Source: Elusimicrobiota bacterium (lineage in GTDB: Bacteria; Elusimicrobiota; Elusimicrobia; F11). Taken from it: a DNA stretch of 64,000 nt. The DNA is taken from the NCBI GenBank assembly GCA_022072025.1, contig JAJVIP010000006.1:1-64000 (forward strand), read 5' to 3'. The notes under the pieces are model-generated. The model did not search any database. It saw only the letters and a list, made by a program, of their open reading frames with translations, and was not told the DNA's origin. Below are positions 44,501-64,000 of this stretch, piece by piece. The position numbers and the translations under genes were made by a program. Positions within the stretch are counted from its first letter, which is position 1; each line of letters starts with the position of its first letter.

Positions 44501-47500
44501 GTCACCCACTTGTATCGTATAGGTAATAACCCGATCAATCAGTGAAAAGAATACAGATCGATCGGATTGCTCAATTGCGCGCATCTCATTTCCATCTGGA
44601 AGACCGCCCACGTCATCACCATTGGTAACCTTAACATAACGGACCCCCTTTTCAGCCCAATCAAAAAAACATCCATCAACGACCAATTGAAAAATCGAAG
44701 CGATGGCTCCAGGAGGAGACGTTAACATCTGAAAATCTTGCTCATGGCCGTCCATATGTAACTGCTGAGGGCTGAACCACTTGATCCCTCCTTTTTTATT
44801 GATGGCGGGAATTCCACGAAGTGAATGAACCGTGGTTTCAATTTTTGCATTGTCGTCATAGTTCTCATCTACTATGAAATGTTTGCCCAGACGATTGGGA
44901 TCATGGAGAAGCATGTCTTTTATGTATTCATCATTGGTGTCTTGAGTTACCACAGCGACAAAAGCTTTCCCTCCAGTGGGGATGCGAGCCATCAACGCAT
45001 TGAGAGTAATGGTTAATGCATTTTGCAATCCATAAATTCCAGCGATATTAAAAAGAAACATAAAAAGCATGGATTTGCTAATCACTTCCTTAACACGGGC
45101 AGATTTGCCAACCGCGCGACGGCCAGCCCCGCCATTCATACTGACTTTGCCCCATTTATTATTCTCGAGAGCTCGATTCACAAAATTATCACCTTCTTCA
45201 AGACTCCAAACCTGATTGTCTGTTAGATCAATGACGGGAACCTGCTTAGGAAGAGGAGAAAAACTTGTGGGGACTTGTGGAATATTCCCCTTGTTTTCTG
45301 CGTGACGAACCAGGTCCCGATAAAAAGATCTAAAGTTGATAGGGGGGGTGGAATGTATGGGAGGAAAGGCCCTGATGATAATTTGAGCTTTTTCAGGGGA
45401 GGTTTTGTTTGAGTCAGACAATAACTCGCTAAGAGGTCTTATATCGAAATCACCAGAGGTAAAAGGAAAAATGGTTTTCGGATTGGAGTCAAGAAAATCC
45501 AGGTCATCTGGTTTATATCGGCCCGACGGTCCTCTATAATCCTCAAGATAACGCCTCATAGTTGGGTCCAATATGCGCGTTCGACGCCATATGCCAATCC
45601 AAGTGTTCAAATCCACCAAAATAACCGCAATAAAATAGATAGGTAAAGTCGGAACCGACAAAACAAGCGCGGGAATAAACGAGAGGTTATTGACAGCAAC
45701 AATGACCCAAGAGAGTAGAGGGGATTGGGTTTTCGTTGGAAGGTAGAAAAATTTATTTTGAATAAAGAAGGTCCAAAATCCAAGAATTTGAATTAAAGGA
45801 TGAGCATTCGACTCATTCACGACAATAATTTTTTTCCCCTCCTTATTTGGGTCCAGACTGGGATGGAGATCCGCTAAAAAAACTTCTTTCATGAAAGGGA
45901 TTTTGTTGTAAAGGCTTTCATTACTCGTTAAATTTTTTTCAAAGAGAAAAGGTTGGCGCCCAAGAACAGGATAATCCATTTTTAACCAAGAAATTTTCTT
46001 TGCATTTAAATACCGCAGGGGACCAATTAGTCGATAAGTGATTTTGGATAGTGATTTGGCAGGAAAAAAGACCATGCAAAAATGGACCATTCCAAATTGA
46101 GCCATCAATAAACCAATGGGGATCAGCGTCAATAATTTAATTGTGAATAGGAAAGGCGAAGAAAATAACAAGGACTCAATGGAGAAAAAATGGAAAAAAA
46201 CATCGAGCGAAAAGAAAATCAACCACTGGGTCACAAGAGAAACAATTGTAAGTCCCTGACCAGGACCCGAAAGATAGTGATCCCGCTCGTTTCGAGTAGG
46301 GACTCCGAACGTTAAAGAGGAAAGGTTCCACAGCATTGAAATCAGATTAAAAAGGGAATGAAGAGGAATAGAAAGAAGGTATATACCAAGAGCAGCCCCC
46401 AGGGTGAATGACTGAAAATAATTTCCAATCCCGAATGTTTGAGCCATCAAAACCAATAGAATCATGGGTGAAAAAAGGGAAAGAACTCCCAACGCACGCC
46501 ACAGTACATTGGTGACGAAGGGGCTTCCGCGGGTGCCATTTGTTTTTGAGAAGAGGGTGCTTAAACTCAATTCTCCAGACAAGAAATCTTCAATGATGTG
46601 CGAGAGATAAAAGGCGATGGCGGTACACACAGCAGCTGAAACAAACGCGACAGGAACTGAAAAACCCACAACGATCAAAATCCCATAGGACGTCAAAGAA
46701 ACCGGGACCAGGAAGAAAATTAACTCAAAGAGCGCGGCGCCATTCCACGCACTCTTGTAATTCTCAAATCCTTCTTCTCCCCGAAACCGCGGAAACAACC
46801 AGGCAGCCAAAGAATATATCGAACGCAGAGTTAAGGGTTGAAAAGCAGGGGTTATTGTTGGGGATAAATTTATGGCGTCTTTGGCCGCACGGTCATATAG
46901 GGCGATGTATTCATCTGTTGGATCGGACCAATAGGAATCAACCCGCATCGCATTGTCCATGATTTTAAACCACAGCCCATCCTGGTTACGACGGGAAAAA
47001 ACGTCATAGGCTTCATCTATTTTCTCACGAATGAGAGTACCGACATGTTCCAGGTTGGGCCTTCGTACAGATTCATCTTCCGACATCGCCCGAAACAATT
47101 CCACCGAATCAACGCCTTGCACCAAAAACCCAGTGGCTTGATCCCGAAATAATTTCGGATCCTTAATTACTGAGATACCCCCCACAGGTGTCCCAAGCGG
47201 TACCATACCCGCCACCATGGCCTCCAAATGGACCAAACCACACGGTTCGAAGAGGGAAGATGTTATCGTCAAGTCTCCCCCGAGGGTTAAATTAGCGAAG
47301 TCGGTGTCAAAAGAAATGTATGAGTAAACATGGTGGGGAAAATCTTCCTGAAGTTTTTCGGCAGACGTTTGAATATCTCGAGCTCCAGTGCCCAGTAAAA
47401 CGAAAAATATTTTTTTATCTTTGTTTATTTTCCGGATGGCATCAATGGCCACATTCCACCCTTTTTCATCCACCATTCGGCCCACCAAGGTCACCACAAA

Positions 47501-50500
47501 TGTGTCGGAATCGAAAGCAACTCCTGCGTTTGCGTATAAATCCTGAACCTGCGCCAATTTTCCTAGCAACTTTTCTTTTTTCTCAGAGTCGATATTTAAA
47601 CCATCTATTTCTTGTTTGATTTTGTCAGCCACATCGACTTCATTAATCCATTGATCTCTTAGGTGCTTTATCTCATTGGCAAGGGTCTTCCTTTTCTCCC
47701 CTTTGTGAGCTTGAATTTCGAGCAACAATTCATTTAATTTCTTATCAAAACCCGCTCGCATTCTCGCGATCCGCCGGGCCAATCGCATTTTATTTCTGGG
47801 TTTCACTTCGTGAACGTTACTGGCCGTATAAGGTTCTACCCCTGAAAGATGGGAGGGTTCCCTTTCATAACCGATGCCATTCATGATCCCGGTGAACCGT
47901 CCTTGAGAGGCAAGATCACGAAACATATCGGAGAGATACCTGTAGCCGCCGTCTCGGCCAGAGACTTGCAGTTCATGGGCATGGCCAGAACTGACCGTAT
48001 TCACTTGTTGACGGGCAAAGGAAGGGGCCAGTCCTCTCAGAAAATTAAATTGGCTGAAATATTCCAGGCTTTTTTCGCCTCCGGGGATGAAATACGGGTC
48101 CCTGGGAATACCAAGCATTTGAAAGAGGTGGTAGGACAAGCGGGTCACATGACTGTCAAATTTTTGGAATCGCGAAGGAGATGAAAAAAGGCCCTGATAG
48201 GCGGCATTGTGAACGGTGCTCACAACAGCGGTGCGTAAATAAAAGTTTTGTAGCCGGGCAAACATCTGGGGCGTTAGACCCAACATATGTTCATTTCCTG
48301 GCTTCCCTTGATCTGAGATGAATTTATCAACAGAGTTGGATTTCAGGTAATCCATCCAGGGCGCCATGAGCGAGCTGTGCCAGTCGTTTAAATGAAGAAC
48401 TTCAGGGGGGCTTTGCCCAAGGGCCTCGGCCAGAACCATATTCGCAATCAAAGTCGCCTTGGAAAAAAAGACAAACCGTTCCAAAGCAGAGGCCTCGGCA
48501 TCGGTAAAATCCGCTTCGGTTGAAAAATAAGGATTCGGACTGGCCTCGGCGATTCTTTGTCCATTCTTGTCCAAAGGTTTACCCATCTTGTCCGCTGAAA
48601 AATATTCATCCGCTTCGATCAGATTCACCGGGGGTCCGTCAGATCGTTCGACCTGAATGATTCGGGCCCTTACTTGTTTTTCTCCCATCGGCACCCAAAA
48701 ATCTTCACCTATTTGCGAACGACTTGCCCTCTCAATTTTATCTTCGATGCCAACGCCCTTATAAAAAGGCATGAATTGAGTAACTTCATGGCCAAAACCC
48801 CAAAGGGATTTGCAAAAAGCGTCCGCAACCATTCCGATGCCGCCAGAATGCCAGAACCCTCGAATTTCACTTGAGACATACGAAATCTTGCGTATTCTGG
48901 CTCGAATGATTCTTTCAGCGATACTACTGGTCAGAATCCTTAAAAGTTTTTGAACCTCCTCCCTTTTTCCATCTCGCTCAAATTGACCAATGATTCTCCA
49001 CGCCTTCGCATAACGATTGTAATTTTGGTTCTTGTCTGATTTCTCCATCAGGGGGTTTTTTAAGAGCCAGGCCACATTCTCATACCCCGCCTTTTGGTCC
49101 AGGAGGTCGGTTAACTCAGCTTTTAAATGATCTGGGGAACTGGAATGCCAGTATTCCCATATTTTCTGATGAACGGCCATGAGCGTGTCCGCATCCAATC
49201 CTCTTTCAACAGCGAGATACCCGTGCGCCTTAAAATATTTCCACAACTCTTTTGATGACATGGTCGCCACAGGATTTTTGGGTCCCATAGAAGAGTCATT
49301 GAAAGCGGTTGAAAACAAACCAGCAATCCCAAATATGGAACCCAAAATAGCGATTAGCATGGCCACCACACCCGCCCCGACAAGCACCGTCCTATACGCC
49401 AGAGTTTTTCCATTAAAAACTCCAATCTCAGTGCTTCCCTCACCAGCTATATCGGAACCAACAATTAAACGAGTGGCCGCAATTCTGATAACAGCCACAT
49501 CTTTCCGAAGGGCCTCTAGGCGAGCCAGCCCATTGGACGCTGAATGAACCGCTGCCTGAACAACCGCCAAAGACAAATTTTTACCGATAGACAAGCCCGC
49601 GATGAGAAGCGTCATCATCCCTGTGGCCGGTTTGTTTTCATATCCAGGGATATTGGCGGGTGCTCCCAGAAGGCGATCGGCCATCATCAATGTTAATTTT
49701 TTGCCTTCGAAAAGCTTGGACAGCGGGGTTCGCTCTTGAAGAAAGGCGTGAAGATAATTTGAATTCTCCGCTAATGAAAATTTCGGAGAAAGGACCACAT
49801 AGGAAACACCTTCATTTCTTAGGATATTCAACAACCCATCGCTGTGAAATCCACCAGCCACAAGAACCGAAAATTCGCTTTGGGTTGACCGATGATTCAC
49901 CAATAGATTCTTCGCCATTTTTTCATTGCGAGCTTCGGCCACTTTATAGAAGACCTCAAAAGAAGCCATGGCAGGATCGGAGGGAAGGTTTTGATAAGCA
50001 ACCCATTCCTCGGGAGTCAATTTAAACGCGATTAACTTTTTCTTTAACTGAAGCTGGAGGAGTTGGTGAATCAATTTTCTCTCCGTCCCTGAGATCAAAG
50101 AACTTTCAAGAGCTTCTTTTTCCATTTCATGAATCTGAGAAAAAACTTGTTTTTGATTAACCGCATCGGCAGCGTCAATGTAGTGAATGTAGGTTACAAG
50201 GGCTGGATAGGCATTCATTTGAATTCCAGCTTTCAGGGCCAAACGTTTCAACTCGGTGTAAAAAGAACGATGGGTCAGTTGGCCATTTTTAAAGGCCCTC
50301 CCCATTTCCGTCAAGGCTCTGAGAGAATCACCACTTTTTTCGGACAATAACCCGACAAGGGAGTCTCGTTCTTTTTGTGTTCTGACTGGGTCCAGGGCCT
50401 TCTCCAATTCCACGGCTGTCATAAATTTCATAAGGCTGTGGCGCGTCTCACCCTTTGAAAAAAGAACCAAATGTGGAATGTATTGGGCGATGGAAGTTTG

Positions 50501-51280
50501 CCCTTCGTGATAGGAATAAATGTGTTTGAAAAGTCTCTGGGCGGATTCCCCCATCGTTTCCACGCCTTTATTCAATTCAACCAAACGACGTCGAATGTCA
50601 GATTCAGCTTTGGTTTTAAGCGTGGCTGATTGCCGATAGGCATTTACATTCTGGAGATACAAGGAAGGATCATCGACGCCGACAATTTGAGGGACCGGAT
50701 CTTGCGTGGTTAAACCGAACCAGGAAACACCCGCAATGAGGTTTTCATGAAGTAGGTGGTCGGCCACACTCCTCTTGATTTCTTTATCCGGGAGAATCCG
50801 ATAGGGTGAAAATTTAAAATTTCCAGAAGCAGCTTCCACGCCAATGAGGAATTGTTTCTTGGTTCCTTCACGGATCGTTTGCAAAATCTTTCCGATATTT
50901 TTCTGCGCCTCCACATTCATATGGATGTCCTGGACAAGGAAAACCAATGGAGCCTCATTTTTTCCTCGGTATTCCTCTCCAACATAGGCATGGGCAGAAA
51001 TATTTTTGAGAAGAGGTTTTAAATACGGAAAGGGACCGGACGGTTGGCTCGCTGTGGATTTTGAAGACTCAACCCCAAATTCCGAGGATGCCGCTTTGGT
51101 TCTCAAACCCATGGTACGGGTGTCCCATATAGAAATTGATTTTGGAGAAGGAAGGGACACGGAGGCTGTTGCATATTGAACAAAACCAGGGTTCAATAAG
51201 ATCTGCGTCACAAAAAACAGCACCGCCACGACGGTGGCTAAAAGTTTACTGGGTTTCATGACTCGAGAATGATTCATCAT
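41576..51280 (-). CDS. Giant 3,234-residue membrane protein with GT5-like and UDPGP-like domains (giant C)
   Basis: Order: signal/anchor helix (about 12-30); shared module 112-530 (QDIH 117-120, GVDDPSLYLQNVNAY, VAGGFH near 475); membrane helix near 635-660; GT5 glycogen/starch-synthase-like catalytic region about 797-1380; CPBP-like membrane module about 1517-1647 followed by more helices to about 1900; UDP-glucose-pyrophosphorylase (UDPGP)-like domain about 2005-2445 (MNGGAGRRA near 2048, VTNGDDVGGLPDG near 2220); further membrane helices about 2717-2860; helical C terminus. GT5 motifs are well kept (LHLNDWHSSL, TVHNAAYQG, LVGRM..EKG, FEPCGLVHLEA), but the family's K-x-G-G lysine is histidine (WHSGG). 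It could couple sugar activation to glucan synthesis at the membrane (inference). ATG at 51280 has AAGG six bases upstream, inside a hairpin. It lies 79 nt after giant D. Confidence 0.87.
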   Translation of the reverse strand: MMNHSRVMKPSKLLATVVAVLFFVTQILLNPGFVQYATASVSLPSPKSISIWDTRTMGLRTKAASSEFGVESSKSTASQPSGPFPYLKPLLKNISAHAYVGEEYRGKNEAPLVFLVQDIHMNVEAQKNIGKILQTIREGTKKQFLIGVEAASGNFKFSPYRILPDKEIKRSVADHLLHENLIAGVSWFGLTTQDPVPQIVGVDDPSLYLQNVNAYRQSATLKTKAESDIRRRLVELNKGVETMGESAQRLFKHIYSYHEGQTSIAQYIPHLVLFSKGETRHSLMKFMTAVELEKALDPVRTQKERDSLVGLLSEKSGDSLRALTEMGRAFKNGQLTHRSFYTELKRLALKAGIQMNAYPALVTYIHYIDAADAVNQKQVFSQIHEMEKEALESSLISGTERKLIHQLLQLQLKKKLIAFKLTPEEWVAYQNLPSDPAMASFEVFYKVAEARNEKMAKNLLVNHRSTQSEFSVLVAGGFHSDGLLNILRNEGVSYVVLSPKFSLAENSNYLHAFLQERTPLSKLFEGKKLTLMMADRLLGAPANIPGYENKPATGMMTLLIAGLSIGKNLSLAVVQAAVHSASNGLARLEALRKDVAVIRIAATRLIVGSDIAGEGSTEIGVFNGKTLAYRTVLVGAGVVAMLIAILGSIFGIAGLFSTAFNDSSMGPKNPVATMSSKELWKYFKAHGYLAVERGLDADTLMAVHQKIWEYWHSSSPDHLKAELTDLLDQKAGYENVAWLLKNPLMEKSDKNQNYNRYAKAWRIIGQFERDGKREEVQKLLRILTSSIAERIIRARIRKISYVSSEIRGFWHSGGIGMVADAFCKSLWGFGHEVTQFMPFYKGVGIEDKIERASRSQIGEDFWVPMGEKQVRARIIQVERSDGPPVNLIEADEYFSADKMGKPLDKNGQRIAEASPNPYFSTEADFTDAEASALERFVFFSKATLIANMVLAEALGQSPPEVLHLNDWHSSLMAPWMDYLKSNSVDKFISDQGKPGNEHMLGLTPQMFARLQNFYLRTAVVSTVHNAAYQGLFSSPSRFQKFDSHVTRLSYHLFQMLGIPRDPYFIPGGEKSLEYFSQFNFLRGLAPSFARQQVNTVSSGHAHELQVSGRDGGYRYLSDMFRDLASQGRFTGIMNGIGYEREPSHLSGVEPYTASNVHEVKPRNKMRLARRIARMRAGFDKKLNELLLEIQAHKGEKRKTLANEIKHLRDQWINEVDVADKIKQEIDGLNIDSEKKEKLLGKLAQVQDLYANAGVAFDSDTFVVTLVGRMVDEKGWNVAIDAIRKINKDKKIFFVLLGTGARDIQTSAEKLQEDFPHHVYSYISFDTDFANLTLGGDLTITSSLFEPCGLVHLEAMVAGMVPLGTPVGGISVIKDPKLFRDQATGFLVQGVDSVELFRAMSEDESVRRPNLEHVGTLIREKIDEAYDVFSRRNQDGLWFKIMDNAMRVDSYWSDPTDEYIALYDRAAKDAINLSPTITPAFQPLTLRSIYSLAAWLFPRFRGEEGFENYKSAWNGAALFELIFFLVPVSLTSYGILIVVGFSVPVAFVSAAVCTAIAFYLSHIIEDFLSGELSLSTLFSKTNGTRGSPFVTNVLWRALGVLSLFSPMILLVLMAQTFGIGNYFQSFTLGAALGIYLLSIPLHSLFNLISMLWNLSSLTFGVPTRNERDHYLSGPGQGLTIVSLVTQWLIFFSLDVFFHFFSIESLLFSSPFLFTIKLLTLIPIGLLMAQFGMVHFCMVFFPAKSLSKITYRLIGPLRYLNAKKISWLKMDYPVLGRQPFLFEKNLTSNESLYNKIPFMKEVFLADLHPSLDPNKEGKKIIVVNESNAHPLIQILGFWTFFIQNKFFYLPTKTQSPLLSWVIVAVNNLSFIPALVLSVPTLPIYFIAVILVDLNTWIGIWRRTRILDPTMRRYLEDYRGPSGRYKPDDLDFLDSNPKTIFPFTSGDFDIRPLSELLSDSNKTSPEKAQIIIRAFPPIHSTPPINFRSFYRDLVRHAENKGNIPQVPTSFSPLPKQVPVIDLTDNQVWSLEEGDNFVNRALENNKWGKVSMNGGAGRRAVGKSARVKEVISKSMLFMFLFNIAGIYGLQNALTITLNALMARIPTGGKAFVAVVTQDTNDEYIKDMLLHDPNRLGKHFIVDENYDDNAKIETTVHSLRGIPAINKKGGIKWFSPQQLHMDGHEQDFQMLTSPPGAIASIFQLVVDGCFFDWAEKGVRYVKVTNGDDVGGLPDGNEMRAIEQSDRSVFFSLIDRVITYTIQVGDKTVQIKFEGTKHVLNPNDLPIGYSFRTVPGTSGTPEFESNTKAWDVASLKWPSLLDQEELESLRVPVIEQEGQRVPLKILGVSFESGGTPVWDVRANRAVIKDDKEIVPKGDTPPSDPEGRAHWTAQKFAADKMRLAITQFNTNQANIHLIRFLRELGFWEGDEQTPPRQALSKARKMSLEERVKTISELMEPIPPILDPSELSAGSSEVFDKVIWKLADIMSVVSSGFLVIDRDGIRTRSAYQTIKDADGMTKPEVLERMAHLLRDLIPAETITKYEIPPPHFNSVSSVMMLFIQGSLALGREYIVPNTWGLPLQHSEKPDPSAEAKITLRKQDVLSFIRQHLSEERFKEFEGSHGTLRENLKTDSIFRYVNLLVLELYQKGWQIVVQPEADSQGHKYDRGIKVDTLTGDVTFFVGRTNIEGVSLTSPDHLTNFMSTQFGVNLIPLFKGIDSPSLIRDMFSTGAVAVVLAWALGQMGAPEIFPVALFLAGFWAFLAALAALQQGGFSHWNTPVATTDGKSTLFGQVSAPYQNVPFLFMVPHRLEEFSHFILRGSRIELVSHTVTLFLLASLSLLVAPFLGGQVDLPILLMAMTGLFLISISRSTANQPSVIGSSSIEDILGQGLKRARENELLSSSQIQQLTVFSGGQLPSVESFNLATMTGDLITLMSERRRRELIPQHTDFAHRSLAQGVSPILQRHIESLDKALLETNNAKSRQEILDQMTGVLGYQVAIEGSDVEPYATLLTGLAVGLGLRTTGVSHRQFATKIERAANHFKSEMLARRPNQKIGQPVTRYYSFQDIQSRAQMAEGDESITARLRGRLEEIATNTVAGHGHFESEEGEASRSKVAFAIPVNMAPDEFVSQMMALMDQHRIQPKLRAKIKFGLTQVFVHQSDKADPVELLKSMGQLSTVKTLVSLPIQLENWDFTSYQRLLELNPDMVREYIVEHLDFATGEIHRLEGHLKSAVESLHFA

Positions 51281-51359: not shown

Positions 51360-54300
51360 TTACGCTTGGGAGGCGATTAATTGGAACCTCCTGAGAACTT
51401 GAATATCGTCAATATCCAGGTTCACGATGGCCATTTTTCCAAGAATTAACATGGCAATTTCGATTTGATTATTCAGCTTGTTTTTAAGGCCAGCGCATAT
51501 CTCGTGATAATTGTCGGGTCTAGGGGCCCCATCGGCCATCAGGAACACGGCCGTTCCGGCGGGCCCTTGAGTGGTTTGGAGCAAATCGACCGGCTGCAGA
51601 TCCGGGAGACTCCCCCACAATTCTCTTGTGACCTCAGTAATCTCAATGACCTTGCCTGTATACATGATCTGCAGTTGCCCTTTTAATCGCAATATTTCTG
51701 AGTCTATCTCCTGACGAACGGTTGACTGAGGGGCATAATAAACTTTGATCAGATCGGCCGATTGAGATCTAAAAAATTGGAAGGCGGGAACGGTTTGTTT
51801 GCTAGTCAAAGCCACATAGGATTGATCGATCAACGAATCCCGATGTTGACGAAGGTGCCCAGCGAGATCGGTGTTTTCTCTAAAACTTTGCAACCCCAAA
51901 GGCAATGTCTGTGCGGTTTCAATCTCACTCAAAATCTGAATAATTTCTTCATTCGATCCAGTCGGTCCATAAGCTTTTTTAAATAGCCGGTTGAGCCGCT
52001 GGGCCGAGACCGTCAACTCCCCTTCCCCCACAGGAGCAACCAAAGACGGTAACGAAGGCTTCGGACCCGCCACACTTTCCAACCTTTTTAAAATCTCACG
52101 TTCCCAATCTTGTTGTTCTTGTTCGGGATTTTCTCCGCGTAACCCTTCACGTTGAAGCGCCTGAAGTGCTTCATCTCGGTTTTTGGGCTGAGCCTTTAAG
52201 ATAACTTCGACTTCACGATCAAACCGCGATGGATTTTGTGGATCAAATTTCAACAACAAGACATGCCTGAAAGTGATCTTCAGTTTGGGTCCAATTCCAT
52301 ATTCCAACGAACGGTTGTATTTTCTCCGGCTCTCTTCATTGAAGTCCCGGATGGTTTCATCTCCTGAATTGGGTAGAACAACCATTATTTCATGGGATTG
52401 TTCCGCCGCAGGGCCTTGAGGAAATACTGCAAACACCAACCCCTTCAAGTATTTCTCTTTCGAACCCGGGAAATCGCCGCTGGCCGCCCATTTCGGATTC
52501 GAAGTAACCGCCGTAAAATCCGGGCGCCCTTCCTTGTTCCTGACATTGAAGAGCACATCGTCCCAATTCAAGCCTTCTGTCTTGGAACGGCTTAAAAACT
52601 CAACGGCCTGAAGTATGGAGGGATTTCTAAAAACCACACCCAACCCTTCACGGCCAATCCGGTCTTTCTCGATGGACTCAAATTCTTCTTCGCGAGGTGG
52701 CAATTGATAAAGCGCGACCCCATTCGTTACATCGGTTTCTTTCAGACGGAAATCCAGCGTCCCAAACCCTAGATATGAGATTGAAATATTTCCCTGTGGT
52801 ATTTCGCCCTTTGTTGTTGGAAGAAGTAACACATCACTTCCGGGGAGATCCTTACCTTCTCTCGTAACCACGCTTGCAAAAAAGGCGCCGCTGGAATCAC
52901 GAGAACCAATTCGAAAATATTGTCCCGGTAAAATCAATTCGACTACTTTCCCTGTTATCAGCTTTGAAATTTCCTTGGGTGGAAATTCCGTGTTGGTGGA
53001 AGCGTAGGGGACCAACCTCCCCAAAGAAGGAGACAAATTTTTGATCACCAAGGCCGCCGCATTGTAAGCGGAGTGGAAAGCAATGGCCCTTAAAAAGGCC
53101 TCAACCATAGAGGCACTCAGATTCCAGAAGGGGAACCCCACCGCCAGTCCCACAAGGAAAAGCACCACGCGGTTTTGAAATGAGACTGGGTGCTTCTTAG
53201 AAAACCAAAGAGCGGAAAGCACCCAAACCACAGTGGGCGCCCAATCGGGGATATTGATCAGTGTGACCAATATTTGAGACAAAGGAATGAGAATGAAGAA
53301 AAGGACTTCAATAATGGGGCGAGAAAAAAGATACGTCCACAACAGATCCATTTGGAAAAGGGGAGGCGCCGTTGCATGGGGGATATTTATGAGCCTGACT
53401 TGCTCGTCGACGTTCACCTCAGCGAACACATCGAACACGATTTTTAGCTCTCCCAAAAGTTGAAAATGAACTTGTTGTAAGAAGTTGGGAGTGACTCTCT
53501 CAGAAAACTTTGTTTTAGTTCTTAATTTAATTAATTCATCAATCAGAGCGTCGGGGGCCTTATCCCCCAAGCCCTGAAGCCGAGCTTTGTGAATATTCAT
53601 CAACTCGGTGAAAGCATGAATATATTCTTTAACCGCGCTTTCCCACGCAGCCCAGTCGCTTCGTTTTTCATGGAACTGGCCCGCCAAGGACTTCGCCAGA
53701 AGCGCATTTTCCAATTCTTGAATTCGCTTGAGATCTTCGGCTCTAACTTGACCCACGATCGCTTTCACCAATTTTCGATCCGCCTCAATCTCCAGGATCG
53801 GGCCCAATAGCCCTTGAACTCGATTTTCAAGTTGATTCTTTTGCGTTTGGGTTGCGTCATCTTCCGCCGTCAATGTGGCCAATTGTGTCTCAAGCTGGAT
53901 AATTTCTCGCATTTCCGTTGCGAACCGGGCTTTTAACCGCATTGACTTTTTGGCGATCGACTTTTCCTTGACTTCCACTCCTCTCTGATTCTCAACCACC
54001 GATCGTACCGCTTGGACCAAAAGATTTTTGGCCTCTTCAATGGAAGGAACCGCTTGTGTTAATTGATCAGCTTTGCCATCCAATTCACTCCACACTGTTT
54101 CTTTGAGGGCTTGGGCCTGCTCATCACTCATGCCCCCCTCACTTAAAGCCATGAACTTCTCTTTGTATTTATCGGCCAATACAGGGGCGACTTGATAAAT
54201 CACTTGGAGGACTTTGGGTGCATGACCATTCAACCCCGCGTTGGCCTGAGCGCCAATATTCCCCGGATTCCCCACGGGCTCTTTGGGTGAAACCACCAAG

Positions 54301-57300
54301 GCTGGGACAGAGGCATGCCCAGAAAGTTTCATTTTGAGCGAACGGACTCTCTCTCCAAAATATTGTTTAGCTTGGATGAAATCATTGTTGTTGACATCCA
54401 TTAAAACCCCATAAAGCGTTAGAGCCTCCGGAGTGGCCCACAATTCTTCATTCGTATTGTTTGTTGGGTTCCCGTTGGCATCCAGAGTCGTTTCAGGCAA
54501 GTTTTCAATAAACGTGAGACCGTCCACCCAAAAGAACCGATCGATCTTTAATTGAGACTCCGCCAACGCATAGGCATTGATCCGCTGGAACAAATCTCTC
54601 TGGGCTCTCTTAGTGGCTATGGTCCTTTCTTCATTCGTAATGGGGATATAGGCGTCAACCAAAACAGCACGTTCCGCCCTGGATAGTTTTTTCCACACAT
54701 ATCTCTCGACCATCAACCGCTGGCAATAATCTTCTTTTGGTTCTTGAGCCTGGCGTTCTCGCGGCAAATTGTCCCATTCCATCTGAATTTGTCTGCGCAG
54801 ATGGCCCCAGTCTCCTTGCACTTGGCGCAAAAGACGCGCCATTTGGCGGTTGCTCTTGAGGGGCCAGAAGGGTTTAACATCAGCGAAACCAAAAGTTATT
54901 TCTCGCTCCGCATTGTGATAGGCGTTTTCATAGGCTTCCAAATTGGGTACTTGGGCTTGAAGGACGGCTTCAACCTTTTTGGTGTGTTCTTCCACAAGTT
55001 TTAAATGAACCACAGAAGGATTCTGCCAGGAAGGCCCCTGCATCATTGCGCCCAAACCATGGTAGTAATAACCGGTCCCCAACGGCGCACCAGCGAAGGC
55101 GCCTGGATATTGCCAACCACTATAAAGCCCCAGAGGAGCCAGGTCAGGATTTTGGGGTCCCTTCACTCCCAAAATATCCGACATCTTTTGAACACGAAGC
55201 GCGTTTCTGTAAATCTTTTGGTCCCTTCCCCACATTCGCGTAAAAGAGGGAATGTTTCGATGGGGCACCACCCGTTTGATCCGGCGGGCCACCCTTTTCC
55301 CGAAGTCGATTCCCACCCAAGGCAACAAGCCCTCCCCTATTATTTCAACGAAAGTGATGAAGGGCACCGTCACCACTTTGATGAGAGAGGGAAGGTTATT
55401 GAGCAAATCAAGAAAAACATATTTCACCGCCAAAAGAATATGAGCCAAGTTTTCTTGGCGATCTTTCCAGGAAAAAGTGGGGTTAAAATAGAACGGCCCA
55501 ATCCACCATCCAAAAGAAACCGTCAAAATCTGAGGGAGCCAAATAACGAACTTAAGCGGGTCAAAATTGGAAAGAAACACCACCATGAGGGTAAGGACCA
55601 CTCCGCGAATAATGGTGTATTGCATCATGTAATACAACTGATCAAAAGTCATTCGTTCAAGCGGCCCGCCTTTTCCACCTGTTTTCAAGAATTGAGTTTT
55701 CTTTTCAATTCCTTTTTGAACAGCATCCGCATATTGAGGAGTAATGGCGGTGGCGAACGGGAATATTTTGAAGGGCAGGTCCCAAAAATAATATTGAGCA
55801 GCCCCCTTCCACCACCCCTTGCGGTCCACATAAAGCATGAGAGCGCCATACCCAATGGCTTGAGATATAATCAAACTGACCACCCAGGACAAATAGGGCA
55901 ACCCAAACCAGGGGTTCAGATTTAAGAAATAGAAAATGATTAAGACCATGCTGGTGACCCGAACCACCGATGGCTTTTTCAAATAGAACCCATAACTCAT
56001 CAAAGCGTCTAGTTTCACAGTCCAGTGGAGATGAGGCGAATACATCAACTTTGAGAAGATCGGGCCATAGACGGACTCGGGCGCATCCCCCGACCATTTT
56101 CTCAACGGATTCAAAGATCCCGCCCATTGATTGCTCAGTCCCTTCCCCGGTTTGTAATAGGTCAAATGGGTGGTTCGCCCCCCCGCCAGCAACACCCTCT
56201 CCGCGGTTTTCGCATCTTCAGCCACATAGTGATCCGGCAGTCCTTCCAAATAACGAATCATCGAGCGCCGAAATACAAATTTTCCATAGGCTTCCAACGC
56301 TCCCACCTCGCGTTTTGTGGGTTGTTCTCCCCACAACCAGCCTTCTTCCATGGTCGCCATCACAAACGCCTGCGGTGACAAAGGTTTGGTGAAAATATCG
56401 CCGGTATATACCGCCACTCCCAAACGTGGGTCCATATCAAACTCCCGACCAATACAGGGGACCCCCCAGGCTTCGTGAATCGGAAGACGCATGTCAAAAT
56501 CATTGGCAATGACAAGTTCGCCTCGCAAATCTTTCAAGACGTGCATCCACCCTTGATATTTCTCCATATGAATATCGGCCTTCCCGGTTCTTGCGCCATA
56601 ATAGATGCCAATGTCATGTTTCACCATGAGCTCCATATATTTCCTGTAACTGTTGTAGTCTCCGGAATTGGGGAAAGGAGCCAAATTTACTCCGTTGGTC
56701 CCATTCGGTGGGAATTGAATAATGTTTTTCGAGATCAAATCCCGATATTCGTTTAATGACAATCCTTGGTATCTGGGATCATTGGCAAAAACCCCTCTCA
56801 AAAAATCAACCATGGATTTGGCGACCATGGTGTGAATCACAACAATTTGAACTTTTTTCCGGGCCATCCCCTCAATCTCTTCTGCGGATTTCTCTGGATT
56901 GAACTTCTTAAGGTAATAGGCATAGGTTTTCCTGGCATTGAGGGCTCCCATAAAATTGGCATAGATCGTTTGAGATCTCATATTGAACCAATGTTCGATG
57001 GTGGCAATGGCTGGGGCATGATCCGAATTGTTCTCTACAAATGTTGTCAATATGTGATTGGGTTTCTTTTTCAATAATTCCAATTCGGTGAGTTGCGCTG
57101 CATTAATAAGCCCCTGATCTTTCATTTTATCCAGCAACATCTGGAACTCTTCAGGATAAGAAACTGCCAACATTCCCAACTGCGTCTGTTTAGCAGCTCC
57201 ATCCAACTTATTGAATAGGTTGTACATCACATAGCCATTCTCACCGAACCCTGCCAACTGGTAAGAAACTGACCGCAATTCTTCATTGTTGGTAGGGGCG

Positions 57301-60300
57301 GGAGGCATGTCATTGCGGAAAAAGGTGTTGACCCAATCTTGAATGTATCCCTGGGTACGTTTCGCTTTTATTTTTTTCACCGCCGACTGGATATTTTGAA
57401 CGGCTTGGTTATACCCAGCCAAATTATTTGCGGCTTTGGCCTGTTTGGCTGCCTGAATCGCCCCATTAATTTCCCGGTATTCCGCCGGGCTTAACCAGGT
57501 TTCTTCGGCCCAACCGTTCACGTTGATCTCAAACATTTCCAAGTATTGAGGTTCATTTGGACCTTTCTCAAAGTCCCCTTCAAATAACTTGGGCAAAAGT
57601 TGAACCGCACCAAGCGTGTGGGGCTTTGCATTTCGAATCGCCATGAAAACAATCCACACAACCAAGGTGACGAGCACATAGGTCATGGTGTTGAATCCAA
57701 AAACGAAAAGCGAAGAAACGCCCAAGGTCAGCATGACGTAGTTGAACACGCGCTCCGCCCTCCCCCAAGCGGGACTGGTGCTAAACGACTGGGCTTGCGC
57801 GAAATTATAATTTTGCCCCGCCCCCACACGCACAAAGCCCTTTAAAACATTGGTGATCCCAAAATAGGTCAGCACATACATGTCGGGCAAAACGCTCAAT
57901 GAAAGAACGATCAAAAGCGGTTTTGTCCACCACCCCAACATCAGACTGGCCACCGAAACGGGGATGGGCATGAAAATGATCTGATAGAAAATAAAAACCG
58001 AAACAAATGTCGCGAAAGCCATGGAGAGCGCAATGGAATAACCCCAATGGAAAGAAGCGCGCTTTTCTTTCAAAGTCAAAGACCGGAAGGATAACCAGAG
58101 AAGAAGCAAAGCCAACAATGGGCCAAAATAAACAGCCGCTCCCAAGAGCACCCAACCCAAGGGCACACCCGCCACTATCGCCGCCACCGCGCCCACGGGA
58201 ACCAACACACTTGACAGCAGAATTAAGGGCCCCCACCCACTTCTCCAAAACCGCCTGTCCAAAACATATTTGAGAACAACTCCCAATAATTTCCATTCTC
58301 CGCGCTCCGCTCTAACATCAGGGAAACGGTAAAAATCCATGCGAACATTTTCCACCATGGGTTGCATATGTTGGTTGACGATAGATTGGATGAGGTCTGA
58401 ACTTAAATTGTTTTTGGCATTGTTCGGAGCTTGATAAACGCCCAATCCAATTCGTTTGAGCAAAAGATCAAATTGCCCACGGGCCTCCGTATATTCAGGG
58501 CGCTGCATGAACCGCTGAGGCAAACGGCCGTCAGTTTCTAGCTCAGACTCTCCCATATAAAATCGGAAAGCATCATTGAGATCTTCCCAGGTTAACAAGA
58601 ATTCCCAACGACGGTCTTCATCATCCACATAGGCCTGCGCCACACGACGCATATCACGGTTGCTTTCCAACCGCATATGTTGGTCCTTTAAAACTTGGTA
58701 CCAAAATTGTTCATGTCGGTTGATAAAGGCTTGAATCTGGGCGGGGGTATTATTTGCCATCAACAAACCTTGGATTTCTCTGGTTAGCCATTTGACCACC
58801 GGGTAATTGCTGTCGATATATCCAATGATTCGGGGTATAACCGCATTTTGAATCACATATTCTTCCAACGATACGGTCTTCCACCCCATTTGCTGATTGG
58901 GAACAAAGAAACTGGGCCCTGTCACTTGTCCCATCACCGGCTCAGGCAAATCCATCGCGTCCATTGGAATTTCTTTTGAAATGATCTCGATCAAACCATC
59001 CACATAGTTCGTGTTGTCGAATTGATCTTTCCCTTGAAGCGGAAGGCCCACACGATCAAACACAAGCGCAATTTCACTGCGGAGGCTTGCTCTCACTTGC
59101 GGTTTCATGGCCCCCCTTTCATCCCAATAGGCCGCGCGGAACATATCCCGAAGTATTCTTCTTTCAAACCAGTTTTGAGATACGGAGTGTGGACTTAATT
59201 TCCCGGCCAGTGTGCGAACAAGGCCGTTTATTTGATCTTGGGTCAGCAGATTGAGGCCAATGAAATTATCCATTTGCGCTTGTAATTGAGGAAGCGCCTC
59301 TCGGGGAGTGTCAAGAAGGACTTTAAGGTTTTCAGCTGTGAGCGCATCCGGAGCGCGGGATCTGAACACCACTTTCTTTCGCAAACTTTTCATTGCTGCT
59401 TCAAAATTCACATATTGATGTCGATCCTCGCGAAGCAAGGGAACAATTTCATCGAAACTCTGAATCACTCCCACTTGATTTCGATAAGTCACGATTCTTG
59501 CCACCGCTCTATGGGAAAACACTTGCTCCAACTGTTCAGCGGAAGCCCTGTTGATCTCCACTCTTCTCACCGTCAAAGTTAAAAACCGCCACATAAACAT
59601 TCCAAAAGCGGTGAGAGCGGCGACAATCAAAGCCACAATCTGAGATAAAAACAGGAACCGCTCCATCCGCGCCCAAGCATTAATTTTCACATCAGCAGGA
59701 AGGGAGGCATCGGAGAAAAGCTTATCACGTTCCGCGATGGCGATAATTTTCTCTGCCTCCGCTATTTCTTGAGCTTTGAGGAAAAACCTCAACCCCAAGG
59801 AATTCAAAATATTGTCCTTGAAACTCCACTCGGCTCGATATTCAACCGTGCGTCTTTCCCCTTCCTGTTCTTTCGCCATCACCACGCCATTCTTGTAAAC
59901 AATCCAGCCAGGGGCGGGATACAAGAGTCTAATGAACCATGATCTTGCTGGATCGTTTTCACGGATGACCAAGTATCGATCTTGACCCGCTCGCACTGTG
60001 GCATGCGAAAATGTTCGCCATATCTCTTGACGATCCCCTGTTATTCCCAAGCAATAGGCCGGCAATCCGTTGGCATTGTAAACCAACCGAATTCGATCGG
60101 GTTCACCGGGCATACCCTTCCACTCAATGTATTTCGGCGTTCCAAAGGTGGTCACCGCCACTTCCAAAAGCGCCCCGCCCTCGCGGCGGTCCTTGGCTTC
60201 ATAGGCCATGTAATATCCATTTTGATCTTTTCTGAATTTCAACTGACTGAGCGAACCGATAAAATCTGCATCGCTATAACTGCTGCGGTCCAACTGCCCT

Positions 60301-63300
60301 GGTTTGAAGACAAAGATGTCACTGCCCTCGGAAATCGATTCATGCCATAAACTGGCCAAGTCCAGAAGCATCGAGTAGTTAAGGAAATTGATGTATTTCC
60401 CATCCCGAATATTTTTCACATAGCCATCTGGACCGATCTCACTCTCTTCAAAACCAGAAATAATTTTTGTCAATTCGCCCCGTTCATTTTTGACCTCCAC
60501 ATAACTAAGGGTCAACGCGTCAAATGAAATCGTTTTCACTTGTTGTTGCAGATATTTAAATTTGTCGAAATCGTCCTTGACCCAATCCGGATACACAAGG
60601 GGGGCAAAGCTTATCCCTCTTTGGGTTTTGTAGAGAATTCCGCGAGGGATCATTTCCGTGGAATTGGCTTTTTGGAAAAGAGTTCGTTGGCCGGTTTTGG
60701 GATCCACGTTCAGGGTGAGGGTTTTATCAGCGATGTTGTAGATGTAATTGGGACCCATATCAGGACCCACAAACGCGAAGAAGTGTTTTTCACATTTAAA
60801 ATTATCTCGTCGCTGCTCAAATGTGTTCCCTATTGATCCACCATACAGAATTTCTTTTTTCCTTCCTTCCTCATCTGTTATGAACTTCTGATCGGTTTCA
60901 AGAGGATCGCCAGAATAGGTGCTGTCGCAATGCCGGAAGGTTTCTATACGCATTCCTTTTCCAGGAACCATTTCCAACCCTGTGAGCTCAGAGGTGCTCG
61001 CGGCTTTTGTTTCAGGTTCGCCATTGTTCCCATTGTTTTTGGGTGTGAAGAGATGGGCTTCTGTTCTAAAGGCCACTCCCAAAGCTCTTAGATGAGACGC
61101 ACTAAAACCATTCCACTCTTTGTAAATATAATTTAAACGGGCAAAACCCTGATAACCACGGCTGATTCGCTCGCGGGCCTTTTCCACTTGACCTGATTTG
61201 ATGAAGGCCAACACCTCATTTCTTCGCAACAAGTCCTGAATTTCGATTTGGTCAAGATTTAACACCAACGGCTGTCCATTCTCGTCTTTAAGGACATCCC
61301 CTTTGGTGTTTGTTGCCAAATAGCTCCCTTCATCACGCGCTTCAACCCCATATTTTGAGCGATATTCGATGAACGAAGCGCCCATTCCCGCATCCAAAAC
61401 ATGAACAGCTTGAGTGCCAGGGATGGATGAATCCACTCCATGGTTGACAACCACGGACATACTGAGAACCCGTCCCATTTGTTTATTCGCAAAACTCATC
61501 ACGAGTCCCATGGAATTTACCCACGGCTGACCCTCATCGTAAAAATTCAAATTGAGCTTTTCTTTATCTGGGGTCCAGTCTATTTCAGCCAAAAGTTGAT
61601 GATTGCGGAAATAGGCCGTACGCGTTTTCCTGGGATGTTCCACACCATCATCACCGGAGGGATACAGAGGTTCAATATCGTAAGCGACGGCATTTTCCAA
61701 TTCTTTGGCCAATACGGGATAATCATCTTTTAATTGGGAAATGAGGGATTGACGGAGGGCGGCGTCTTTGTTGATGCGGGTGCGATCTGTTTTTTGACCC
61801 ACGTCCTTATTATTGAGTTCATAGGCATTTTCTCCTTGAGACACCAAATTCTCATCATAGGAAGGAATCAACAAACGCTCCTGCCCTTGGGAGCCTTCAA
61901 TGCGCGCGATGTATTTGTCTCCATGTTCATTGTCAAAGAAATCAATGAAAGTGTGCGCATTCCTCTTATCGGTGATTTTAAAGGCCATCACCTCCGGGCG
62001 ATCCAGAAGATCTTGGACTTCTTTCTTGCTGGAAAAATTAAGGAGAGAAGCTGGATCAACACGAACCGCTGTTCCAATCGGGACATTTTGGCCGGTGTTG
62101 TCTTTCTGAAAATTAATGGTTTTTGTTTTCGGGTCAAACAAATAGGTTTGACGTCCTTCGACTGTGCCCAACATCTTATTGAGGAAGGAACCCTTGTAAT
62201 CGATCAGGTCGATCACTTGCTTATCCGGCGAGAAATAGAGCGGATCTTTTTTAACTTCGGCCAGCGTGACGCCCCGCGAATCCAAGAGAGCCGATTGTTT
62301 CCAGTGGAACCGTTTGTCTTTCGGTTCGAATTGATAGACCTGAAAAGCCGCCCGAGCGTCGGCCAACTCCGGCGGCTCTTGAGCCAGAACATCCGGGACC
62401 AAAGCGTCCACGCTATAAAGCCCCAGTTCCTCGCGGTGTCCGGTTGAAACATCCTTCCCATCTCTGAGAAACCGGTATTCGTCCCACCCCGCCTTCTCCC
62501 GGTTCGGCATGGTCGGATCGACAGTGTATTCTCCCCCCGTCCGTTTGACGGACAAAACCCCTTTGTCCCAATCGATCCGGCCCACCAACGTCAAGCCGTT
62601 ATAAAATTCGATGGTCCGGCGGCGGACATATTCCCCTTTTTTTTCGTTGTATCCCCATTCGAAGCGTTCGCTGGGAACGGTTCCTGAAAACAAACTCCGG
62701 TCTGCGTCATTGGAGAAGAAAGAATCAACAGACAGATGTTTGACCGAATGGCCCAATTTGCGCGCCGTGCCATTTTCATAAACAAAACTCTGTCGTCCAA
62801 TTTCCCCATGGTCGGAGGGACTGTTTTGACGGCCCGAGGCTTGGGCGCTGTTGCGAATATCTTCCGGAATGGCCGCGCCTTCATTTTCGTAATACACCTG
62901 TTCAATGATTTGGGTAACCCGATTTCCATTTTCAATTTTTCCTTGGAAAATTTTCTTGAGTTGAAGCGCCGGGTTTTGCCCCAGGTCGTCTTCATATTTC
63001 TCCGGGGCTTCCCTATATTCTTCGCCCATCCAGGTCTGATCCGCATTGTCCCGACGAATTTGCAACAACTTGATATCTTTATTTTCGATTTGGTGACGCG
63101 TCGTGAACGTGGCCAGTTTATCGCCCAATGTGCCATCGGGATTCAAAGCATAGGCCTCTTTGGGAATGGGCACATATTTTCGGGTCAAGTGAAATATGGA
63201 TCGTTGTTTTTCGAGGTCCATGATGATTCGTTCTTTTCGAGAGAGGTCGTCTTTGCGGGGAACGTCCATGTAAACCACTTGCCCGTCCACTTCCATGCTG

Positions 63301-64000
63301 TCGTTATCGAACGACATGACTTTTCCATGATCATCAGCCTGAAGGTACTTGGTTATAAAACGAGGCCGTCCCTCAGCATCTTTGACGATTTGACCTTTGG
63401 GATCCAATTCAATTTCTCGAGTCCGATAAAGTTTTCCAAAACGGTAGATCTCCACCCGACCGGAAATCCATTCGGCCGCTTCGGGACTGAACACATGCTT
63501 CGAATGCACCTCCACGCGGCCGTCGTCAAAACGTTTTTGCAATAGAACCGCGTCCGGCAGTGCCGGCGTAGGGACAGAATAGCCGGCCAGATAACTTTCT
63601 CCCTCTTTCTCTTTCATCGCCACCCAATCAATCATGGGCGATTGCGGGGACAACGCTTCAGCTCCGTCTGGCCCTTTGGCATTCGAGCTGGCGGTTTCAA
63701 TGGGCTGATCTTTTTGGAGCTTTTTCAAGGTCTGATAGTAAAATTCTTTGGCGGGGAGGGCGGAGTCGCCTCCGATCACATAGAGCTCTTCGCCCTCTTT
63801 GGCGCCATTGGCATTGAGGAGCGATTTTCGAAAACCACCCGCTTCAATTTGGTCTTTATCTCCCAGCGAACGAATGGCTCCGGTCACAGGAACCCCATTC
63901 ACGGTAATTTGGCCGTCCACATGCGCCACTTTGCGTCCTGCCACGTCAAATATTTCGAAGTGAGAAAATTTTCCGGTCGCTCGGTTGATGACAGCCGTCC
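51360..64000 (-). CDS. Giant membrane protein with a GT48 (beta-1,3-glucan synthase)-like region, 5' end outside window (giant D)
   Basis: The frame is open to the window edge: at least 4,212 residues, with the true start beyond 64000. Residues below are counted from the GTG at 63944. About 1-1400 is a beta-rich region with many Y-F/D-G turns, unrecognised. Next come a membrane helix 1430-1452, a ComEA-type helix-hairpin-helix (VEINRASAEQLEQVF, 1458 on), helical stretches, six or more membrane helices about 1895-2110, a GT48-like region about 2240-2620, and membrane helices about 2655-2960. A soluble, partly coiled-coil segment with glutamine and lysine-rich helices covers about 3000-3500, then a CPBP-like module about 3535-3634 (AFHSAYNAAALV), then a soluble C terminus. 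GT48 similarity: IEHWFNMRSQTIY near 2315, MARKK near 2355, GKADIHMEKY near 2453, EDAKTAERVLLAGGRTTH near 2575, YKPGKG near 2597. It is followed 79 nt on by giant C. Confidence 0.85.
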   Translation of the reverse strand, partial: TAVINRATGKFSHFEIFDVAGRKVAHVDGQITVNGVPVTGAIRSLGDKDQIEAGGFRKSLLNANGAKEGEELYVIGGDSALPAKEFYYQTLKKLQKDQPIETASSNAKGPDGAEALSPQSPMIDWVAMKEKEGESYLAGYSVPTPALPDAVLLQKRFDDGRVEVHSKHVFSPEAAEWISGRVEIYRFGKLYRTREIELDPKGQIVKDAEGRPRFITKYLQADDHGKVMSFDNDSMEVDGQVVYMDVPRKDDLSRKERIIMDLEKQRSIFHLTRKYVPIPKEAYALNPDGTLGDKLATFTTRHQIENKDIKLLQIRRDNADQTWMGEEYREAPEKYEDDLGQNPALQLKKIFQGKIENGNRVTQIIEQVYYENEGAAIPEDIRNSAQASGRQNSPSDHGEIGRQSFVYENGTARKLGHSVKHLSVDSFFSNDADRSLFSGTVPSERFEWGYNEKKGEYVRRRTIEFYNGLTLVGRIDWDKGVLSVKRTGGEYTVDPTMPNREKAGWDEYRFLRDGKDVSTGHREELGLYSVDALVPDVLAQEPPELADARAAFQVYQFEPKDKRFHWKQSALLDSRGVTLAEVKKDPLYFSPDKQVIDLIDYKGSFLNKMLGTVEGRQTYLFDPKTKTINFQKDNTGQNVPIGTAVRVDPASLLNFSSKKEVQDLLDRPEVMAFKITDKRNAHTFIDFFDNEHGDKYIARIEGSQGQERLLIPSYDENLVSQGENAYELNNKDVGQKTDRTRINKDAALRQSLISQLKDDYPVLAKELENAVAYDIEPLYPSGDDGVEHPRKTRTAYFRNHQLLAEIDWTPDKEKLNLNFYDEGQPWVNSMGLVMSFANKQMGRVLSMSVVVNHGVDSSIPGTQAVHVLDAGMGASFIEYRSKYGVEARDEGSYLATNTKGDVLKDENGQPLVLNLDQIEIQDLLRRNEVLAFIKSGQVEKARERISRGYQGFARLNYIYKEWNGFSASHLRALGVAFRTEAHLFTPKNNGNNGEPETKAASTSELTGLEMVPGKGMRIETFRHCDSTYSGDPLETDQKFITDEEGRKKEILYGGSIGNTFEQRRDNFKCEKHFFAFVGPDMGPNYIYNIADKTLTLNVDPKTGQRTLFQKANSTEMIPRGILYKTQRGISFAPLVYPDWVKDDFDKFKYLQQQVKTISFDALTLSYVEVKNERGELTKIISGFEESEIGPDGYVKNIRDGKYINFLNYSMLLDLASLWHESISEGSDIFVFKPGQLDRSSYSDADFIGSLSQLKFRKDQNGYYMAYEAKDRREGGALLEVAVTTFGTPKYIEWKGMPGEPDRIRLVYNANGLPAYCLGITGDRQEIWRTFSHATVRAGQDRYLVIRENDPARSWFIRLLYPAPGWIVYKNGVVMAKEQEGERRTVEYRAEWSFKDNILNSLGLRFFLKAQEIAEAEKIIAIAERDKLFSDASLPADVKINAWARMERFLFLSQIVALIVAALTAFGMFMWRFLTLTVRRVEINRASAEQLEQVFSHRAVARIVTYRNQVGVIQSFDEIVPLLREDRHQYVNFEAAMKSLRKKVVFRSRAPDALTAENLKVLLDTPREALPQLQAQMDNFIGLNLLTQDQINGLVRTLAGKLSPHSVSQNWFERRILRDMFRAAYWDERGAMKPQVRASLRSEIALVFDRVGLPLQGKDQFDNTNYVDGLIEIISKEIPMDAMDLPEPVMGQVTGPSFFVPNQQMGWKTVSLEEYVIQNAVIPRIIGYIDSNYPVVKWLTREIQGLLMANNTPAQIQAFINRHEQFWYQVLKDQHMRLESNRDMRRVAQAYVDDEDRRWEFLLTWEDLNDAFRFYMGESELETDGRLPQRFMQRPEYTEARGQFDLLLKRIGLGVYQAPNNAKNNLSSDLIQSIVNQHMQPMVENVRMDFYRFPDVRAERGEWKLLGVVLKYVLDRRFWRSGWGPLILLSSVLVPVGAVAAIVAGVPLGWVLLGAAVYFGPLLALLLLWLSFRSLTLKEKRASFHWGYSIALSMAFATFVSVFIFYQIIFMPIPVSVASLMLGWWTKPLLIVLSLSVLPDMYVLTYFGITNVLKGFVRVGAGQNYNFAQAQSFSTSPAWGRAERVFNYVMLTLGVSSLFVFGFNTMTYVLVTLVVWIVFMAIRNAKPHTLGAVQLLPKLFEGDFEKGPNEPQYLEMFEINVNGWAEETWLSPAEYREINGAIQAAKQAKAANNLAGYNQAVQNIQSAVKKIKAKRTQGYIQDWVNTFFRNDMPPAPTNNEELRSVSYQLAGFGENGYVMYNLFNKLDGAAKQTQLGMLAVSYPEEFQMLLDKMKDQGLINAAQLTELELLKKKPNHILTTFVENNSDHAPAIATIEHWFNMRSQTIYANFMGALNARKTYAYYLKKFNPEKSAEEIEGMARKKVQIVVIHTMVAKSMVDFLRGVFANDPRYQGLSLNEYRDLISKNIIQFPPNGTNGVNLAPFPNSGDYNSYRKYMELMVKHDIGIYYGARTGKADIHMEKYQGWMHVLKDLRGELVIANDFDMRLPIHEAWGVPCIGREFDMDPRLGVAVYTGDIFTKPLSPQAFVMATMEEGWLWGEQPTKREVGALEAYGKFVFRRSMIRYLEGLPDHYVAEDAKTAERVLLAGGRTTHLTYYKPGKGLSNQWAGSLNPLRKWSGDAPESVYGPIFSKLMYSPHLHWTVKLDALMSYGFYLKKPSVVRVTSMVLIIFYFLNLNPWFGLPYLSWVVSLIISQAIGYGALMLYVDRKGWWKGAAQYYFWDLPFKIFPFATAITPQYADAVQKGIEKKTQFLKTGGKGGPLERMTFDQLYYMMQYTIIRGVVLTLMVVFLSNFDPLKFVIWLPQILTVSFGWWIGPFYFNPTFSWKDRQENLAHILLAVKYVFLDLLNNLPSLIKVVTVPFITFVEIIGEGLLPWVGIDFGKRVARRIKRVVPHRNIPSFTRMWGRDQKIYRNALRVQKMSDILGVKGPQNPDLAPLGLYSGWQYPGAFAGAPLGTGYYYHGLGAMMQGPSWQNPSVVHLKLVEEHTKKVEAVLQAQVPNLEAYENAYHNAEREITFGFADVKPFWPLKSNRQMARLLRQVQGDWGHLRRQIQMEWDNLPRERQAQEPKEDYCQRLMVERYVWKKLSRAERAVLVDAYIPITNEERTIATKRAQRDLFQRINAYALAESQLKIDRFFWVDGLTFIENLPETTLDANGNPTNNTNEELWATPEALTLYGVLMDVNNNDFIQAKQYFGERVRSLKMKLSGHASVPALVVSPKEPVGNPGNIGAQANAGLNGHAPKVLQVIYQVAPVLADKYKEKFMALSEGGMSDEQAQALKETVWSELDGKADQLTQAVPSIEEAKNLLVQAVRSVVENQRGVEVKEKSIAKKSMRLKARFATEMREIIQLETQLATLTAEDDATQTQKNQLENRVQGLLGPILEIEADRKLVKAIVGQVRAEDLKRIQELENALLAKSLAGQFHEKRSDWAAWESAVKEYIHAFTELMNIHKARLQGLGDKAPDALIDELIKLRTKTKFSERVTPNFLQQVHFQLLGELKIVFDVFAEVNVDEQVRLINIPHATAPPLFQMDLLWTYLFSRPIIEVLFFILIPLSQILVTLINIPDWAPTVVWVLSALWFSKKHPVSFQNRVVLFLVGLAVGFPFWNLSASMVEAFLRAIAFHSAYNAAALVIKNLSPSLGRLVPYASTNTEFPPKEISKLITGKVVELILPGQYFRIGSRDSSGAFFASVVTREGKDLPGSDVLLLPTTKGEIPQGNISISYLGFGTLDFRLKETDVTNGVALYQLPPREEEFESIEKDRIGREGLGVVFRNPSILQAVEFLSRSKTEGLNWDDVLFNVRNKEGRPDFTAVTSNPKWAASGDFPGSKEKYLKGLVFAVFPQGPAAEQSHEIMVVLPNSGDETIRDFNEESRRKYNRSLEYGIGPKLKITFRHVLLLKFDPQNPSRFDREVEVILKAQPKNRDEALQALQREGLRGENPEQEQQDWEREILKRLESVAGPKPSLPSLVAPVGEGELTVSAQRLNRLFKKAYGPTGSNEEIIQILSEIETAQTLPLGLQSFRENTDLAGHLRQHRDSLIDQSYVALTSKQTVPAFQFFRSQSADLIKVYYAPQSTVRQEIDSEILRLKGQLQIMYTGKVIEITEVTRELWGSLPDLQPVDLLQTTQGPAGTAVFLMADGAPRPDNYHEICAGLKNKLNNQIEIAMLILGKMAIVNLDIDDIQVLRRFQLIASQA

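Follow-up and report, generated by a model that had tools for sequence, protein, structure and literature searches.

GT48 enzymes make callose in plants and the beta-1,3-glucan of fungal walls and are the target of the echinocandins, and to our knowledge CAZy lists the family as essentially eukaryotic. It has been described as a fungal and plant family, FKS/CalS, separate from and convergent with GT2 (PMC6821405). The yeast GT48 enzymes Fks1 and Fks2 (PDB 7xe4, 9wzv, 8jzn) carry a GT domain between two blocks of membrane helices, and the active site of Fks1 comprises Y849, E851, K1082, N1085, D1102-A-N1104 and E1221-D1222 (PMC12715860). The bacterial route to beta-1,3-glucan represented by the curdlan synthase CrdS, which we set beside our protein by description only, belongs to GT2 and not to GT48 (PMC6821405). 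Very large ORFs with helix blocks have been described from Omnitrophota and Elusimicrobiota, for example the 39,678-aa protein of Ca. Velamenicoccus archaeovorus (PMC10066038, PMC11573180). Such giants have been read as adhesins or as predatory or cell-wall-degrading proteins (PMC10066038, PMC11573180, PMC12057145), and both GT48 and glucan synthesis are absent from PMC10066038 and PMC11573180.

Giant ORF D, which shares the length and the helix blocks of those giants, runs for 7,528 codons without a stop (contig C6:51360-73946, minus strand) and leaves the window, by which we mean the whole 64,000-nucleotide stretch that was analysed. Its homologue in a genome of the same family (G003) has an open frame of at least 5,602 codons. 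The source is a member of the Elusimicrobiota and not, as an earlier sequence-only reading of the window had supposed, of the Omnitrophota. That reading had also picked out in D a series of motifs recalling fungal Fks1; all of those that it quoted are present at their proposed place on the minus strand, between the two hydrophobic blocks of the following layout:

51360..63998, minus: in-window part of giant ORF D (residues 3317-7528), which continues to contig C6:73946
57621..58238, minus: hydrophobic block that precedes the GT domain, with about six helices, at the position of Fks1 TM1-6 (Fks1 topology: PMC12715860)
55467..58067, minus: GT48-like region (D residues 5294-6160), one continuous match to a 36-member HMM
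55971..57620, minus: soluble GT-A-type domain, corresponding to Fks1 ~744-1300
55305..55970, minus: hydrophobic block that follows the GT domain, with about 5-6 helices, where the family profile matches Fks1 1371-1492

At or beyond the window edge lies a GH76-like (alpha/alpha) module of D (L001:988-2310, equivalent to contig C6 ~63987-65309, minus strand), assigned by sequence similarity only, the AlphaFold model being too poor (pLDDT 43.7). Homologous modules precede the GT48-like domain in two other genomes, G093 and G344, and D may plausibly pair a synthase with a trimming partner.

Four giants of the locus share a homologous N-terminal Tiki/ChaN-like module of ~480 residues (32-42% identity to D's), with the motifs VLVQDIHxNxEAQ, GxDD and VLVAGGFH and a weak ChaN/Tiki match. 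After this module comes a different enzyme domain in each: a NUDIX domain in one neighbouring giant, a nucleotidyltransferase and a GT5 domain in two others, and the GT48-like domain in D.

41576..51280, minus: giant C (3,234 aa), with a GT5 domain of the glycogen/starch-synthase type (PF08323, 3.5e-25; PF00534, 2.1e-15)
36122..41254, minus: neighbouring giant (1,710 aa), with a PF00483 nucleotidyltransferase and a weak PIG-L match, by domain match
15997-17559, 39725-41077 and 49601-51022 in the window, and L001:9088-10650, all minus: Tiki/ChaN-like modules

The cluster had been proposed to encode both GT5-like and UDPGP-like domains. The GT5 domain is confirmed, but no member of the UDPGP family was detected in D's neighbours or confirmed in giant C, though the PF00483 nucleotidyltransferase does lie in a neighbour. 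The window also holds a tmRNA gene (25795-26145; tag ANEELALAA).

Searched alone, D did not match PF02364, either with hmmscan or in a profile search of its own genome, at the curated cut-off of 37.2 bits. Pfam, NCBIfam and PDB sequence searches (phmmer for PDB) likewise gave no match, whether started from D by itself or from D together with only G003, and PF13632 and PF00535 found no match in D. Because a direct negative with PF02364 would by itself speak against the GT48 assignment, we collected relatives. The GT region of D is 54% identical to that of G003 and 27% identical to that of a protein from the same class and another family (G093). D and G093 align over 610 residues, and G093 matches PF02364 with an E-value of 5.1e-26 (91.6 bits, profile positions 5-501); G348 scores 322.6 bits against the same profile, and the strongest relative matches to 7.5e-96. 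The 36-member HMM, built from bacterial GT48-like proteins with D, G003, G093 and G007 left out, gave 242.7 bits for D, 312.9 for Fks1 and -0.3 for reversed D. An Omnitrophota-only HMM, made from 25 proteins recruited solely with PF02364 and hence independent of D, gave 182.4 bits for D (match 55476-57524) and 314 for Fks1, and with both HMMs reversed D and all other window ORFs of at least 100 codons stayed below 1 bit. In profile–profile comparison, hhalign aligned D plus G003 with the Omnitrophota GT48 set at 100% probability (1.8e-44, 655 columns) as against 55% (1.2e-4) with 16 GT2 enzymes, reversed controls remaining below 1%. A family profile with D as its first row found Fks1 at 9.7e-52 (residues 744-1318 and 1371-1492) and BcsA at 1.6e-5. 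The homology covers the catalytic region throughout, and the block that precedes the GT core belongs to it.

The structural model agrees. AlphaFold2, run on window 55119-58271 with neither templates nor eukaryotic sequences as input, returned a model with pLDDT 75.8 and pTM 0.79, in which the aspartate of the DFD motif follows a strand and the ED pair stands at a helix start, as in GT-A enzymes. Fks1/Fks2 structures fill the first six places among its PDB matches (E 4.8e-13, with a TM of only ~0.50), and BcsA and the hyaluronan and cellulose synthases come next. Taken together, the HMM scores, the profile–profile match, the Fks1 profile match and the fold ranking lead us to regard D as almost certainly a GT48 homologue, on a divergent branch. 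Judged by these profiles, the failure of the D-alone and D-plus-G003 searches was a limit of sensitivity and not an absence of homology. The proposal that D is a bacterial relative of GT48 is thus upheld by HMM matches of 182-243 bits, by the hhalign result and by Fks1/Fks2 as the nearest solved structures to the predicted fold; the expected link to PF02364 does not appear for D by itself, but HMM–HMM comparison ties D (100%) to relatives that do match.

The motifs of the GT48-like region lie as follows:

57240..57242, minus: glutamate (in FGEN), counterpart of Fks1 E851 in the UDP-glucose site (role: PMC12715860)
56961..56999, minus: IEHWFNMRSQTIY, counterpart of Fks1 W-A-S-L-R-S-Q, a GT48-specific block absent from GT2
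56877-56900, minus: NPE
56853-56867, minus: MARKK
56568-56585, minus: GKADIH
56559..56561, minus: lysine of MEKYQGW, counterpart of K1082 by Fks1 spacing and invariance
56511-56528, minus: LRGE
56493..56501, minus: DFD at the position of Fks1 D1102-A-N1104, a DxD as in GT2
56166-56219, minus: EDAKTAERVLLAGGRTTH
56214..56219, minus: the catalytic ED, equivalent to Fks1 E1221-D1222
56139-56156, minus: YKPGKG
56094..56102, minus: RKW, at the position of TK-IGAGM in GT48 and QxxRW in GT2

In a 40-member alignment the W and Q of the IEHWFNMRSQTIY block are nearly invariant. At the Fks1 active-site positions D has F for Y849 and keeps E851, K1082, D1102 and E1221-D1222. The lysine of MEKYQGW is invariant and precedes the aspartate by 20 residues, the same spacing as in Fks1. 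The lysine of GKADIH, which had first been equated with that of Fks1 GKSDNQ, is out of register (21 residues before RGE versus 12), and G003 has NQGDVH there, with no lysine. NPE and MARKK are present in D but are not kept in G003, so their resemblance to Fks1 is partly coincidental.

Several nearly invariant GT48 positions have changed in D: N1085 is I or another residue, YGHPD reads YGKFV, the GKGRD of Fks1 reads GKGLS, and the DAN of Fks1, which is metal-independent, reads DFD. The same position is DTD in G003 and DCD in L073, while in canonical bacterial members it is DxN, as in Fks1. D further differs from Fks1 in having ~5-6 rather than 11 helices after the GT domain, and in its flanks, which are Tiki-like and GH76-like within a bacterial ORF of 7,528 codons. 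Between D and G003 the E, K, D and ED residues and the RKW and GKG stretches are invariant, and differences fall at 28% of second as against 61% of third codon positions, indicating purifying selection. With the core residues E, K, D and ED retained and the pair under purifying selection, the D domain is probably an active synthase.

Its likely function, on this comparison, would be to polymerise a UDP-sugar and thread the chain outward. The GT domain would face the cytosol, as the function requires; the lysine and glutamate would bind an NDP-sugar, most likely UDP-glucose; DFD, unlike its Fks1 counterpart, would hold a divalent metal; and the aspartate of the ED pair would deprotonate the acceptor. 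The flanking helices would then pass the growing chain to the cell surface, where the rest of D (signal peptide, Tiki/ChaN-like and GH76-like modules) may bind or trim it. We suggest beta-1,3-glucan as the product only tentatively. It is quite possible, if short of probable, that D is an active GT48-type synthase for a sugar or linkage other than beta-1,3-glucose: N1085, the substrate asparagine, is not retained, DFD makes for a different metal site, and GT2 relatives that share the fold produce cellulose, hyaluronan, chitin and mannan. Nothing direct opposes this, while the substrate lysine, the glutamate and the ED pair are kept as in Fks1.

D appears to be the divergent outlier of a bacterial GT48-like family that is apparently unreported; our literature search found no report of a bacterial GT48, with an earlier mention possible in West-Roberts et al. 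2023 (bioRxiv, on giant genes) or Kizina et al. 2022. PF02364 matches 11 of 341 Elusimicrobiota genomes (best 1.8e-64), and a profile that includes D matches 26 of them, some weakly; among 384 Omnitrophota genomes PF02364 matches 36, 32 of them above cut-off (best 6.5e-89). Named members come from Ca. Proruminimicrobium quisquiliarum (G309) and Ca. Endomicrobium embiratermitis (G290) in the Elusimicrobiota, the GTDB phylum that these two share with the window, and from Ca. Zapsychrus exili and another bacterium in the Omnitrophota. Most of these domains sit inside very large ORFs, amounting to dozens of giant proteins, and in Omnitrophota the open frames with a PF02364 match reach 42,913 codons (G422:C2:421273, L099); further PF02364 domains lie in open frames of 32,526 (G718:C5:87261, L098) and 21,496 codons (G341:C16:16512, L074). 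Eukaryotic contamination is ruled out by intron-free giant ORFs in ~60 genomes of two phyla. Searches with a canonical bacterial member brought up no relatives in the plasmid and phage collections.

Not all copies are intact. Both the ED pair and the KGR region are lost in the G007 member (L008:12303-14792), which is likely a dead copy, so some family members may be dead; on its contig the start of a GT5-like ORF was recognised by eye (L009:2-3694), and a Tiki-like module lies at L009:3779-10603. In L103 (G596:C102:3950-5242) a GT48-like ORF contains one in-frame TAA, from decay or an assembly error, and in G001 and G002 only partial remnants of the domain were detected.

The closest relative of D outside its own family is L073 (G344:C110), from a 0.8-Mb genome of another phylum, probably Patescibacteria; it has KYGGW and DCD and lies downstream of TPR repeats and a GH76-like module. 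Trees built with GT2 outgroups unite D, G003 and L073 (93/76, 95/78) towards the GT2 side of the family and place Fks1 within the canonical bacterial clade (100/100). Several basal members match both PF02364 and PF13632, and these dual matches connect GT48 statistically with GT2. We read D (residues ~5,290-6,160), with a probability of roughly 0.7, as lying between canonical GT48 and GT2, as a divergent bacterial branch of GT48-type, membrane-embedded processive glycan synthases.

These trees, with long branches and Fks1 as their one eukaryotic sequence, speak for a bacterial origin of GT48 but fall short of proving it. Acquisition of GT48 by bacteria from a eukaryote through horizontal transfer, with the bacterial family derived, seems unlikely. 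The bacterial spread is indeed patchy (26/341 and 36/384 genomes), and forcing Fks1 outside all bacterial members, at a cost of 21.7 log units, falls just short of rejection at 5% in the AU test (p 0.063). With the GT2 outgroup, however, Fks1 stays within the bacterial clade, the basal members (G093, G461, G359, D and L073) are all bacterial, and the family occurs in two phyla and probably a third. We would put forward a fuller version of bacterial origin with some reserve: GT48 would have arisen in bacteria, the giant proteins of Elusimicrobiota and Omnitrophota would keep a graded series from GT2-like (DxD, R/K-W) to canonical GT48 (DxN, K-IGAGM type) in which D branches among the deepest, and the glucan and callose synthases of fungi and plants would descend from a bacterial donor.

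A pseudo-enzyme within a giant surface protein, either decayed or with a structural role only, is an improbable reading of the D domain: the changes at N1085, YGH and KGR, the G007 homologue without ED and KGR and the remnants in G001 and G002 would fit such a fate, but D and G003, at 51% identity, do not differ in the E, K, D, ED, RKW and GKG residues, and purifying selection acts on the pair. Least credible is an ordinary divergent GT2 synthase of the cellulose-synthase superfamily, like GT48 through shared GT-A ancestry: BcsA and other processive GT2 enzymes do share with D a GT-A synthase fold (as second-best matches), channel helices, DxD, ED and R/K-W (DFD, ED and an RKW without the Q of QxxRW in D), D's group is nearest GT2 in the trees and some relatives match PF13632 beside PF02364, but the hhalign match to GT2 is far weaker (55% versus 100%), the match to GT48 extends N-terminally beyond the GT core into a part (Fks1 ~747-1007, with W..LRSQ) that GT2 lacks, the fold search places Fks1/Fks2 above BcsA, and no PilZ was found in D.

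Read as a divergent GT48-type branch, D gives some Omnitrophota and Elusimicrobiota giants, whose domains are mostly unannotated, a predicted enzymatic function, and GT48 in such proteins points to polymer synthesis and not solely to adhesion or predation. The intermediate motifs of the bacterial branch make the origin of GT48 directly testable, and with it the step from DxD, which binds a metal, to DAN, which does not. If GT48 did originate in bacteria, many giants now read as predatory wall-degrading weapons would instead be glycan-synthesising surface machines.
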